From Thermodesulfovibrionia bacterium (lineage in GTDB: Bacteria > Nitrospirota > Thermodesulfovibrionia > UBA6902): a stretch of 50,450 nucleotides of DNA. Positions 24,810-45,101 of the stretch are shown here, piece after piece; within the stretch, counting starts at the first letter, position 1, and every line of letters begins with the position of its first letter. The position numbers were made by a program, and so were the translations under genes. A model generated the notes under the pieces. The model saw only the letters and a program-made list of their open reading frames with translations, was not told the DNA's origin and searched no databases. The stretch spans positions 1 through 50,450 of the forward strand of contig CAMYND010000025.1 of NCBI GenBank assembly GCA_947259645.1. Direction: 5' to 3'.

Positions 24810-27236
<2,427 letters not shown>

Positions 27237-27276
27237 TCATTGTGCCCTGGCTTTTCTTCCTGTCTTCTGTTGTATT

Positions 27277-28383
27277 CTAGGTCCTCATCGGCATAACCAC
27301 ACAGGTGTAGCCCTTGTTGTCGGGCTCACGCAAAAGGGTGGGGCTGAGGGGCTCCTGGAGTTCAAGCTGCACTGATTCTCCCTCCATTGCATTCAGTATA
27401 TCCATCACGTAACGAGCGTTGTAACCGATCGTCATTTCTTCTCCCTTATATTGAGCAGCAAGCTCTTCCCGCGCCTCACCGATATCCGGGTTCATTGATA
27501 TGAGTGTTATTTTGCCTCCCTCCAGATCGCACCGCACAGCGTTCGTCCGTTCCCTGCTCATGATGGACATCCGCTTCAGCGCCTTCAGCAGCGCGATTTT
27601 GTCAAGAATAACATGTTTATCATTGCCCTTCGGTATGACCTGGTCATAGTTGGGGTATGTTCCTTCTATCAGCCTGGATGTCAGCATAATATCATCTGTA
27701 CCGAAAAAAATATGGTTCTTGTCGATATGCATTGTAATAGTGTCAGTGCTGCTTTCGATCAGTTTCTTCAGCTCAATGGCCGCCTTTTTAGGTAGAATAA
27801 GCTTCCTCTCTTCAGGCAGGCTTCCCTCCAGTTTCTCCGTTATAACAGACAGTCGGTGTCCATCAGTGCCGACCATCTTAAAATCGATATCATTCTTTGT
27901 TGGTGTAAAGTGCATCAGGATCCCGTTCAGCGTATACCGTGTGTCACTTTCACCCGTTGCGTATATGGTCTTCTCGATCATTGTCTTCAGCGTTTCAGCC
28001 TTGATCTTCAGTTCATCAGACTTGCTGACTTCAGGCAGCGCCGGGAAATCTTCCTGGGGAAGTCCCATGAGCTTAAAGGTGCTCTTTCCTGATGTGACCT
28101 TGACCCAGTTGTTTTCCTGGGCCTCGAGGAGAATTTCACCCTCCACTTCTCTGGCTATCTCAAAAAGTTTTCGCGCCGGAATACAGAGCGCGCCCTGCTG
28201 CAGAATTTCCGCTTTAAGGGGACCTTTCAGAGCTATATCAAGATCAGTCGCCATAAGTGAGGCGGACTTGTTTACCTTCAGCAGAAAATGGCTGAGAATC
28301 GGCATCGTTGTTTTTTTGTCAACAATACCCTGGATATGCTGCAAAGCGTTCTGAATGTCTTCCTTCTGTATTTTCAGCTTCAT
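27277..28383 (-). CDS. dnaN: DNA polymerase III beta sliding clamp
   Basis: 368 residues from the ATG at 28383, which has GGGAGGAC about 5 nt upstream; a longer start adds eight residues with no ribosome site. The three clamp domains can be followed (MKLKIQKEDIQNALQHIQG; IYATGESDTRYTLNGI; VILDKIALLKALKRMSI), and the end YTCVVMPMRT matches the family terminus. It forms the ring that tethers the replicase to DNA. It lies directly after dnaA, 42 bp downstream. No recF is present between dnaN and gyrB. Confidence 0.97.
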   Translation of the reverse strand: MKLKIQKEDIQNALQHIQGIVDKKTTMPILSHFLLKVNKSASLMATDLDIALKGPLKAEILQQGALCIPARKLFEIAREVEGEILLEAQENNWVKVTSGKSTFKLMGLPQEDFPALPEVSKSDELKIKAETLKTMIEKTIYATGESDTRYTLNGILMHFTPTKNDIDFKMVGTDGHRLSVITEKLEGSLPEERKLILPKKAAIELKKLIESSTDTITMHIDKNHIFFGTDDIMLTSRLIEGTYPNYDQVIPKGNDKHVILDKIALLKALKRMSIMSRERTNAVRCDLEGGKITLISMNPDIGEAREELAAQYKGEEMTIGYNARYVMDILNAMEGESVQLELQEPLSPTLLREPDNKGYTCVVMPMRT

Positions 28384-41243: not shown

Positions 41244-43705
41244 AACTTCCCATCCTCTCTGGGGTTTTTCTTATTGTCATTATTATACCCATAAAGGCCT
41301 ACTCTTGTTATAGTTAATGCAGAGACATCTTCAGGAGAAAGCTGTAGAAGCTCCTTCAGGACTTCATTAAGCCGTGCATTCGCCTTTTCAGTATCTGCAA
41401 GAAAAAGCTTTAAAATATTACCTTCAACTTGGGCTCCTTCAACCGTTGGCCTGATGTCTACGGTCTTGTTTTTTCTCTGCACCTCCCATGAATCTCGAGA
41501 AAGGAATGAATTAATGCTATTTATCAGTGAGTTGTCAATGATGACCTCGTACGCGTAGCGCTTGAAAATATTGCCGAGGGAATTGTCTTTCTTTGAAATT
41601 ATCAATGCGCTGCTGAGTCTTATTCCCTCAGGCAGTACAGAATTCATTCGTTGTATCATGTCCTGAGGGTTGACTACAGCTGTCAACTCTATATCAAAAA
41701 ACTCATTGATGCCTGCAACGCCTGAGGGCAGGGCCGGACCGAATGATACCTTCGGGTGTGGATGAAATCCCGAGGAGTATGCAACAGGTATCCGGGACCT
41801 TCTCAGCGCTCGGAACAACACTGTCATCAGTTCACTATGGGACAGGTACCTCATCTCACCGGTCTTTGAAAACTTCACCCTTATTCGGGAGGGGACACTA
41901 AATTTTGAAGAGAACACAGCGGATTTATTCTTTTCCCCTGCCGCTACATCCTGTTGGCTCACCTGGTCTTTGTCTTTGCATTCAAGGCCGCATCCATGGC
42001 AGTTGTTTCTGCAATCTTCTGTAATCAGTTCCTCTGTAGCTTTTCGGCATTCAGAGAGCAAAAATGATTTGGTTACGCCCGTGTCAATAATATCCCATGG
42101 CAGTTCCTCTTCAGGGGTAAACGTGCGGCAGGCATAATGGCTCAGGTCAATCCCTGTCATATCCGCAGCCTGCGTCCATTTGTCAAAGTCAAAATGCTCT
42201 GACCAGGAATCAAAGCGGCAGCCCAGTTCCCATGCCTTTTCAAGCATTGGTGCGCACTCCCTGCCTCCCCGTGAGAAGACAGCTTCAAGCTGGCTGACTT
42301 CGACGTGGGCACCTTTGAAGTTGATGCCCTTTTTCCTGAAAACTTTTTTGATATAGTCCTGTTTTTCCCTCAGCTTTTGGACTGAGTCCTGCCCGATCCA
42401 TTGAAACGGTGTATGAGGTTTTGGGACGAAAGAAGAGACGCCCACATTAATTGTCACACGCCTGCCAGTAAGCTCCCGTCCTCTTTTGAGCGTCCTGATG
42501 GCCATATCAATCAGCCCGTTAATGTCATCCATGGTTTCAGTCGGGAGACCTGTCATGAAGTAGAGCTTTACCTGTGTCCATCCTTCCGAGAAGAGCCTTG
42601 TGAGGGTCTCATTGTATTCTTCATCAGTTATATCTTTGTTAATCACAGAGCGGAGCCGTGCTGTTCCGGCTTCCGGGGCAATGGTAAAACCTGTCTTTCT
42701 GACCCGCTTTATTTCCTTGAGGACATCACGTGAGAGTGATCCTACTCTCAGGGAAGGAAGTGATACCGCTACATGAGCCCCGGCGTATCGATTGTTTAAC
42801 GTCTGAATCAGGGGAAAGAGGCAGCTGTAATCTCCTGTACTCAGGGACAGAAAGGATATTTCTTCATAACCTGTGCTGGCGATCGACTTTTCCGAAAGTG
42901 CAAGCACAGTGGCAAGAGACCGTTCCCTCCGGGGTCTGTAGGTCATTCCGGCCTGACAGAAACGGCAGCCCCGTGTACATCCCCTGGCCACTTCTATTGC
43001 CACCCTGTCATGAACAGTTTTTGCATAGGGAACCAGAGGTTTATCAGGATAGGGCGCCTTGTCAAGGTCCGCCACAAGCCGCTTTCTCACTTTTTGCCCG
43101 GTCTTGTCATGTACGGAAGGAACATAAACACCTTCCAGTTCTGAAAGTGCATCCAGAAGGTCTGCTCTACCGCCTGAATCAGGCCTCTTTTTTGCCCGTG
43201 ATGTCACCTCTATAATTTCCTGAATAACATCTTCACCGTCTCCAATGACAAAGGCGTCTATGAACGGTGCAAGAGGCATTGGGTTCATGGCGCAGGGTCC
43301 ACCGGCAATTATAAGCGGATGACCGGCATCTCTTTTTCGGGAATCAAGAGGAATGTTTCCCAGATCAAGCATGTTCAGAATGTTTGTATACGAAAGCTCA
43401 TACTGAAGAGTAAATCCAACAATATCAAAGTCCTTCAGGGGCAGCCGGTTTTCCAATGATATAAGGGGCAGACTGTTGTTCCTGAGATACGCCTCAAGAT
43501 CGATCCAGGGAGCAAAGACCCGTTCCGCAGAGGCATCAGGGATACTGTTGATGATTTCATAGAGTATTTTCAGCCCGAGATGAGACATGCCGATCTCATA
43601 GGTATCGGGAAAACAGAGGGCCACTCTTATATCGCCATTTTTTCGTACGATATTGAGCTCATTGCCGATATATCTGCTCGGTTTTCTAAAAAGTGCGTAA
43701 TTCAT
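41228..43705 (-). CDS. B12-binding-like radical SAM protein with C-terminal DUF2344 (TIGR03960/TIGR03936 type)
   Basis: 825 residues from the ATG at 43705, with GAGG 7 nt upstream (a TTG at 43717 is the only earlier start). An N-terminal cobalamin-type Rossmann region (DIRVALCFPDTYEIGMSHLG) precedes the radical SAM core with CTRGCRFCQAG (CxxxCxxC), then IAPEAGTARLR. A late Cys cluster (CRNNCHGCGLEC) and the DUF2344 domain (VKFSKTGEMRYLSHSELM...SSGFHPHPKVSFG) complete the fused form. The reaction is not established; conserved linkage to RNase G suggests an RNA or ribosome role. A possible promoter is at 43746-43717 (minus strand). Confidence 0.92.
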   Translation of the reverse strand: MNYALFRKPSRYIGNELNIVRKNGDIRVALCFPDTYEIGMSHLGLKILYEIINSIPDASAERVFAPWIDLEAYLRNNSLPLISLENRLPLKDFDIVGFTLQYELSYTNILNMLDLGNIPLDSRKRDAGHPLIIAGGPCAMNPMPLAPFIDAFVIGDGEDVIQEIIEVTSRAKKRPDSGGRADLLDALSELEGVYVPSVHDKTGQKVRKRLVADLDKAPYPDKPLVPYAKTVHDRVAIEVARGCTRGCRFCQAGMTYRPRRERSLATVLALSEKSIASTGYEEISFLSLSTGDYSCLFPLIQTLNNRYAGAHVAVSLPSLRVGSLSRDVLKEIKRVRKTGFTIAPEAGTARLRSVINKDITDEEYNETLTRLFSEGWTQVKLYFMTGLPTETMDDINGLIDMAIRTLKRGRELTGRRVTINVGVSSFVPKPHTPFQWIGQDSVQKLREKQDYIKKVFRKKGINFKGAHVEVSQLEAVFSRGGRECAPMLEKAWELGCRFDSWSEHFDFDKWTQAADMTGIDLSHYACRTFTPEEELPWDIIDTGVTKSFLLSECRKATEELITEDCRNNCHGCGLECKDKDQVSQQDVAAGEKNKSAVFSSKFSVPSRIRVKFSKTGEMRYLSHSELMTVLFRALRRSRIPVAYSSGFHPHPKVSFGPALPSGVAGINEFFDIELTAVVNPQDMIQRMNSVLPEGIRLSSALIISKKDNSLGNIFKRYAYEVIIDNSLINSINSFLSRDSWEVQRKNKTVDIRPTVEGAQVEGNILKLFLADTEKANARLNEVLKELLQLSPEDVSALTITRVGLYGYNNDNKKNPREDGKLCQAK

Positions 43706-43825
43706 GGATAACCTCAATTATCCCACAGAAAATTGACTAAATGCAATTCATGCGGCGAGAGAGCAGGGAATTTGAGGCCCGGTAGAGGGTGAGCCGCCGC
43801 TATGAGCCTTTTTATAAAGGTGTTA

Positions 43826-44002
43826 TCAGGGATGGTCCTTTCCCTTGAACTGGAGGCATGGTTTACCTGATGACTCAAAAACAACGGTTGATGGCATCTT
43901 CCGGGACTTGAAATTTATGACCCTGCATCCCCTTGGAAACTTCTTGTCCCACGTTACAAAAAAGTGTATGCATTTATAGCAGTTAACTCTGTGCTTCTTC
44001 AT
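43826..44002 (-). CDS. Small Cys-rich protein (58 aa), zinc-knuckle type
   Basis: 58 residues from the ATG at 44002 to TGA at 43828-43826. Cysteines at 8, 11, 26 and 49 (CYKC, GCR, PCLQF) and the phrases FFVTWDKKFPRGCR and MPSTVVFESSGKPC match a small family that I recall from Desulfobacterota and Nitrospirota, often labelled uracil-DNA glycosylase without support. Four Cys suit one zinc site. The frame is clean and its composition is protein-like, but no good ribosome site is visible. It lies upstream of the radical SAM gene on the same strand, 120 bp away. Confidence 0.75.
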   Translation of the reverse strand: MKKHRVNCYKCIHFFVTWDKKFPRGCRVINFKSRKMPSTVVFESSGKPCLQFKGKDHP

Positions 44003-44070
44003 AAGTGCGTGCTGTTATTTAAAATTTAACCTATAGATCATTTTAGTGTATTTGGAGTAAAAATGTTCTA

Positions 44071-44112
44071 TGAACAGGGAGCGGGTAATCTGATATAATG
44101 AAGAATCAGATT
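44071..44112 (+). promoter_or_regulatory. Promoter and overlapping inverted repeat upstream of the selenoprotein
   Basis: TGAACA (44071-44076), a 17-bp spacer and TATAAT (44094-44099), preceded by TGA as an extended -10. A perfect 8-bp inverted repeat, AATCTGAT/ATCAGATT (44087-44094 and 44105-44112), spans the -10 and the start point and could bind a repressor. A strong AGGAGG follows at 44115-44120. Confidence 0.65.
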
Positions 44113-44127
44113 TCAGGAGGTGTGATT

Positions 44128-44340
44128 ATGGCGGACAAGGTTATCATCTATGGCAAGAGTGGCTGACCCTATACTGACAAGGCCCGGTCGGACCACAGCG
44201 GAGCAGTATATTTTGATGTGAAGGCAGATGGAGCAAAACTGGATGAGATGCTTAAACATTCCGATGGTCAGCGTAAAGTTCCAGTTATCGTGGAAGGCGA
44301 GAAGGTAACAGTCGGCTACGGTGGATCCTGAGGAGTGTAG
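44128..44340 (+). CDS. Glutaredoxin-like selenoprotein with two selenocysteines (Uxx-star type)
   Basis: 70 residues if both in-frame UGA codons are read as selenocysteine: U13 (44164-44166) and U68 (44329-44331), ending U-G-V then TAG. AGGAGG lies 7 nt upstream. The order VIIYGKSGUPYTDKAR is the beta-strand and redox motif of glutaredoxins, with U in place of the first Cys and Thr in place of the second. RKVPVIVEGEKVTVGYGG is the cis-Pro segment (VPVI). The C-terminal GSUGV places the second Sec two residues before the stop, the feature naming the Uxx-star family. Each UGA is followed by a hairpin. A thiol or selenol redox role is likely; the exact substrate is unknown. comF is convergent. 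Confidence 0.9.
44181..44194 (+). promoter_or_regulatory. Candidate bacterial SECIS element for Sec13
   Basis: GGCCC (44181-44185) pairs with GGACC (44190-44194) with one mismatch, with loop GGTC. The loop is 20 nt after the UGA, and its GGU fits the bacterial SECIS pattern read by SelB. The stem is short, so a longer alternative fold may apply. Confidence 0.5.
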
Positions 44341-44341
44341 C

Positions 44342-44362
44342 TTGCCGGCAGGTTGTCGGCAA
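44342..44362 (+). promoter_or_regulatory. Candidate bacterial SECIS element for Sec68
   Basis: A perfect stem TTGCCG/CGGCAA (44342-44347 with 44357-44362) encloses GCAGGTTGT. The apical GGTT lies 20-23 nt after the UGA at 44329, a good bacterial SECIS geometry. It lies past the TAG stop, so its sequence is free of coding constraint. Confidence 0.75.
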
Positions 44363-44405
44363 TGAATAACAGTCTCACAGCCGGAATTCTGGCGCATCCC
44401 TGATA

Positions 44406-45101
44406 TTAGTCTTGTGTCCCGTGGGCAAGTGCCATTACAAAAATCTTTTCAGCCCCCGCCTTTTTCAGGACACGGGAACACTCCCTGACGGTTGCTCCTG
44501 TAGTATAGACATCATCGAAGAGCAGAATGTCTTTCCCTGTAACACTGTTGCTGCTCACTTCAAACGCATTTCTTATGTTTTTTACTCTCTCTTTTAAGGA
44601 CAATCCAACCTGGGGAGCAGTATCTTCAGTTTTTATCAGGCAGTCAAGGAGCAATCTGCTCCGCCCCCTCTTTGCAATAATATGAGCAATAAGTGCCGAA
44701 TGGTTATATTCACGCTGCTTGAGCCGGTTAAGATGAAGGGGCACCGGGACAACAGCGTCAACCTCTGGAACTCCCCGCTCGGTCACGAATTCGGCAAGGG
44801 GTTTTGCCAGTCTTTTGATCCCATAGTACTTCAGGAGGTTGATCGCCTTTTTCAGTGCTCCCTCATATAAACCGTAACTGGCGGCGCTCGTGAATGCCGG
44901 CTCTTTTTTTGCACACTCTCCGCATGTCAGGGATGCGTCTGAAATCAGGGGTCGTGCGCATTTCTGGCACCGGGGCCCTTCATAGGGAGAGATCGATTCC
45001 CAGCAGGAACTGCAGAGGGGTGCTGTGCAATGGCTGTCTGATCGGCCTTCGCAGAGCGGACATATTTCAGGAAACAGGATGTTCAGGACGTTATTTAACA
45101 A
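44406..45101 (-). CDS. comF: ComF family phosphoribosyltransferase-like protein
   Basis: 231 residues. The N-terminal double zinc ribbon (CPLC, CSSC, CQKC, CGEC) and the C-terminal phosphoribosyltransferase fold with ILLFDDVYTTGATV define ComF/GntX proteins, and NRLKQREYNHS is also typical. ComF aids DNA uptake in competent bacteria, possibly in partnership with type IV pili such as the one encoded earlier in the window. It overlaps the gpmI stop by 11 nt and is convergent with the selenoprotein. Confidence 0.93.
   Translation of the reverse strand: MLNNVLNILFPEICPLCEGRSDSHCTAPLCSSCWESISPYEGPRCQKCARPLISDASLTCGECAKKEPAFTSAASYGLYEGALKKAINLLKYYGIKRLAKPLAEFVTERGVPEVDAVVPVPLHLNRLKQREYNHSALIAHIIAKRGRSRLLLDCLIKTEDTAPQVGLSLKERVKNIRNAFEVSSNSVTGKDILLFDDVYTTGATVRECSRVLKKAGAEKIFVMALAHGTQD

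Follow-up and report, generated by a model that had tools for sequence, protein, structure and literature searches.

The question raised by this locus is whether a short frame twice interrupted by UGA, at positions 44128-44340 of the window (the whole 50,450-nt stretch of DNA that was analysed), encodes a protein carrying two selenocysteines (Sec). Read with UGA as Sec, the frame translates as MADKVIIYGKSGUPYT...GYGGSUGV*, with two in-frame TGA codons, and the 70-codon frame and ribosome site that had originally been predicted here were both confirmed. The features of the coding region and its upstream sequence are as follows.

44128..44340, plus strand: gene very probably encoding a UXX-star family 1 selenoprotein (70 amino acids, TAG stop; NF041114 match)
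44164..44166, plus strand: Sec13 UGA codon, in G-U-P-Y-T at the glutaredoxin active-site position
44329..44331, plus strand: Sec68 UGA codon, in U-G-V-stop, two residues ahead of the stop
44115..44121, plus strand: Shine-Dalgarno AGGAGGT, 6 nt 5' of the ATG, read in the sequence
44071..44099, plus strand: candidate extended -10 promoter, TGAACA-17 nt-TATAAT with TGn, matching the consensus at 10/12 positions

A GGAGG motif stands at similar spacing in most relatives. The extended -10 motif of the original prediction is indeed present upstream (TGaTATAAT at 44091-44099, with a -35-like TGAACA 17 nt upstream), but promoter-like sites upstream of 44128 were no more numerous than chance would provide (2 found against 1.5 expected in shuffles), and 44071-44099 is therefore only suggestive as a promoter for the selenoprotein gene. 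It had likewise been argued that a frame resuming sensibly after each UGA is hard to explain by chance. On openness alone this does not hold, since the whole 50,450-nt window contains 42 ATG-to-TAA/TAG frames of at least 60 codons with exactly two TGA codons; two-TGA open frames are thus common by chance, and the case for the 44128-44340 gene rests on homology, which does extend across both UGAs. An 860-codon two-UGA frame on the minus strand (24813-27392) was also considered as a selenoprotein and rejected, being a gyrase-B-like gene with its UGAs upstream of the likely start.

Profile searches, in which Sec was entered as Cys, matched the protein to NF041114 (UXX-star selenoprotein family 1) at 110.2 bits against a curated cut-off of 72 bits, covering profile positions 1-70 of 70 (E = 5.8e-27 in a search of its own genome), so that the predicted UXX-star type was borne out over the full model. 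The alignment spans both UGAs and reaches the final residue of the protein, which shows the NF041114 pattern of Sec, two residues and a stop (UGV-TAG). The broader Uxx-star model NF041212 was also exceeded (78.5 bits, cut-off 66), and Pfam Glutaredoxin (PF00462) matched as well. By comparison, the other UXX-star families, for which PMC13188914 cites Haft and Tolstoy 2025, share the same glutaredoxin core and yet fell far short of their cut-offs: family 2 (NF041211) scored 45.5 bits against 100, family 3 (NF047338) 44.6 against 97 and the HUGP/GUXX-star fusion (NF045501) 52.4 against 325. In Table 1 of PMC13188914, a 2026 review, Distant Grx-like protein 1 is equated with UXX-star selenoprotein family 1 and given a UxxT motif and 2 Sec, both of which are found here (U13-P-Y-T16 and U68). 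With a full-length match, UxxT, two Sec and a C-terminal U-x-x-stop, nothing of substance separates the protein from the NF041114 family, and we hold it to be, with high confidence, a two-Sec UXX-star selenoprotein family 1 protein.

The locus is accordingly a good annotation of an already catalogued kind, for which two Sec are normal; since the PMC13188914 table gives 2 Sec for the family, the two-Sec state was already known. The original view of two Sec in 70 residues as something exceptional was not sustained, two being both the listed number and the commonest state among homologues. The gene had further been described as unannotated and missed by gene callers. Ordinary callers do truncate or miss it, and its annotation is corrected here, but an NCBI curated model exists for exactly such a protein, so that callers equipped with Sec rules can find it.

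NF041114 members above the cut-off were detected in 31 of 101 related genomes and in 46 of 296 genomes from a phylum sample, adding Nitrospirota members to this double-selenoprotein family, and homologues occurred in records titled Nitrospirae, Deltaproteobacteria, Desulfobacteraceae, Syntrophus, Spirochaetota and Bacillota. Among 56 distinct homologues, position 13 was Sec in 49 and Cys in 7, and position 68 was Sec in all 56, within the motif G-x-G-x-U-x-V-stop, in agreement with the assignment of U13 and U68 as Sec in the original prediction. Cys was found at position 68 in none of the 56, although the reading pattern permitted it; these members were gathered with the family's own model or the window protein, a procedure that strongly divergent Cys forms could escape. 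After Sec68 and x-V, the frame closed with TAA (25), TAG (19) or TGA (11), or with one extra codon and then TAA (1). The original prediction would have been undermined by homologues ending at the first UGA, and none did so, all 56 reading on through position 13 as far as the C-terminal Sec. Relatives that seemed to lack one UGA, where inspected, either gave a match that ended short of the C terminus or had Cys at position 13. Between the two UGAs, pN/pS was 0.16-0.36 for the 44128-44340 gene against 29 relatives, a low ratio which indicates that translation past UGA 13 is under selection.

The machinery on which such decoding depends, and without which the original prediction would have failed, was found in full in the source genome: selA and selB adjoin on contig C11, selC is present as a tRNA-Sec with anticodon TCA, and selD (L103:946-2040) itself has a UGA in frame within AGGU, the active-site position where one is usual. 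The selD frame holds another UGA, upstream of its likely start. In a further genome (G091, 99% complete), which encodes a two-UGA member (L098) and a good tRNA-Sec (L104), neither selA nor a full or over-cut-off selB was found; the good tRNA-Sec makes it likelier that the selAB locus fell into a gap in the assembly, and this genome is probably not a counter-example. That the 44128-44340 frame represents a Cys glutaredoxin turned pseudogene by two nonsense mutations, as its two stops would suggest in any scan without Sec rules, is a reading to which we attach almost no weight, given that both UGAs occupy identical positions across several phyla, that the gene is under purifying selection and that the genome encodes the full Sec machinery.

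We infer that Sec is incorporated at both UGAs. Under the proposed mechanism, ribosomes would read UGA 44164 and UGA 44329 as selenocysteine via SelB and tRNA-Sec, with one hairpin serving each codon and the second acting from beyond the stop codon. The two hairpins are as follows.

44181..44194, plus strand: putative SECIS 1 hairpin, GGCC-CGGUC-GGaCC, with one bulged A and its loop 18 nt after the UGA
44342..44362, plus strand: SECIS 2 hairpin, in the 3' untranslated region, with a 9-bp stem and a GGU loop, 19 nt after the UGA

A hairpin with a GGU loop had been claimed after each UGA; it is clear after the second, but the first is weak in this copy. The SECIS 2 hairpin, past the TAG, has a folding energy of -12.6 kcal/mol (z -3.3), with 0 of 200 shuffles as stable, and its stem, loop, spacing and energy agree with the bSECIS rules of PMC13188914, which place the loop 16-37 nt from the UGA. 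Across 16 relatives, both partners had changed in 4 of 6 pairs, and none of the 500 shuffles or of the slid controls reached the observed covariation score, in an alignment that was anchored on the hairpin and thereby favours it. From an unadjusted MAFFT alignment around UGA 2, RNAalifold predicted no structure, whereas the loop-anchored comparison found the hairpin, a discrepancy attributable to variable spacing, which misaligned the hairpins in the raw alignment. In L022, L045, L046 and L048 the distance from the start of the UGA to the beginning of hairpin 2 is 18-24 nt, against 10-16 nt in most other members, so the spacing of SECIS 2 appears flexible. For the putative SECIS 1, loop and spacing also fit the bSECIS rules; the 45-nt fold in the 44128-44340 copy gave z +1.6 and the 24-nt core is weak at -3.5 kcal/mol, a stability equalled by only 4.5% of synonymous recodings. 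Family-wide, the region was more stable than synonymous recodings, with a mean z of -1.34 for the 49 Sec13 members and -0.51 for the 7 Cys13 members, which supports SECIS 1 and falls short of proof because the sequences are related. A search of 43700-44700 against Rfam returned no match.

These data also bear on whether the second UGA might be the true stop, the protein ending at residue 67 and the GV-stop tail having arisen by chance. UGA is usually a stop, and just two codons follow it here, yet x-V is kept in 56 distinct sequences, 55 of which stop at once (TAA, TAG or TGA), the NF041114 alignment runs through position 70 and a covarying hairpin of SECIS type lies downstream; termination at UGA 68 is consequently very improbable. 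In 11 of 56 relatives (L028, L029, L031, L047, L062, L063, L070, L083, L089, L098 and L099) the stop codon is itself UGA, 9 nt after the Sec68 UGA, so that one triplet should there specify Sec and, three codons later, termination. We give even odds to the proposition that Sec68, and not Sec13, is the indispensable residue, and that its SECIS, placed wholly in the 3' untranslated region, has a spacing tight enough to specify a Sec-UGA followed by a stop-UGA in these relatives. If this is true, UXX-star genes would provide a compact system in nature for testing how the spacing of a SECIS decides between two UGAs that lie close together.

The AlphaFold model of the protein (mean pLDDT 84.8) has the order beta-alpha-beta-alpha-beta-beta, and the chain stops just past the last strand and a Gly-Gly loop, with no third helix. 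Foldseek returned glutaredoxins as its top matches, led by 7c10 (cGrx1, which we take to be the Clostridium selenoprotein glutaredoxin), with TM-scores of 0.64-0.76 for the closest five and E-values of only about 1e-3, none below 0.001. As modelled, the protein adopts a minimal glutaredoxin fold without the last helix of ordinary glutaredoxins. It shares its fold and active-site position with glutaredoxin 3 and selenoprotein glutaredoxin (PF00462; cGrx1, 7c10); those proteins, however, have C/U-P-Y-C and a C-terminal helix, whereas the present one has UPYT, ends past the Gly-Gly loop and carries an extra C-terminal Sec. A classical dithiol glutaredoxin was rejected on the same grounds, the motif being UPYT rather than of the CPYC type, the third helix missing from the model and the score against the glutaredoxin 3 (GRX_bact) model only 28.2 bits for a cut-off of 90.

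The Gly-Gly loop contacts glutathione in ordinary glutaredoxins, and as Sec68 comes after it, the two Sec are plausibly neighbours in the fold. Sec13, in GKSGUPYT, stands at the catalytic position. We give about even odds to a scheme in which the target attacked by Sec13 would be a disulfide, a metal(loid)-thiol adduct or a compound of selenium, and its partner Sec68 would resolve the intermediate or share the ligand. As an alternative, the two selenols may serve as ligands in a protein that carries or scavenges a metal or metalloid (Hg, As or Cu, for instance) rather than in a redox catalyst. PMC13188914 suggests in general terms that UXX-star Sec may coordinate metals or bind unknown substrates, and this would be in keeping with a C-terminal Sec that is never Cys in 56 sequences and with a UPYT motif without the second Cys of CxxC; that Cys, however, is absent from monothiol glutaredoxins too, and no metal-resistance gene was recognised, among neighbours annotated in part, beside the gene in this genome or common to the loci of relatives. 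We regard metal carriage or scavenging as possible but rather unlikely. A paired selenol site exchanging with a substrate ranks first, as most likely, with pure metal or metalloid ligation next. No test of the biochemical role of UXX-star family 1 was found in the literature, and the invariance of Sec68, set against the Sec/Cys exchange at position 13, indicates which residue to study first.

Across the family loci, no conserved functional neighbour was found and neighbours differed by lineage, so that genomic context provides no substrate, no functional link is claimed and any substrate for the protein would be a guess. The 44128-44340 gene stands by itself, flanked by two genes named from motifs in their translations: one divergent, of radical-SAM type, and one convergent, of ComF type. 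The largest cluster of neighbourhood ORFs, spanning 30 loci, apparently consists of the gene region itself, read in antisense or in an overlapping frame.
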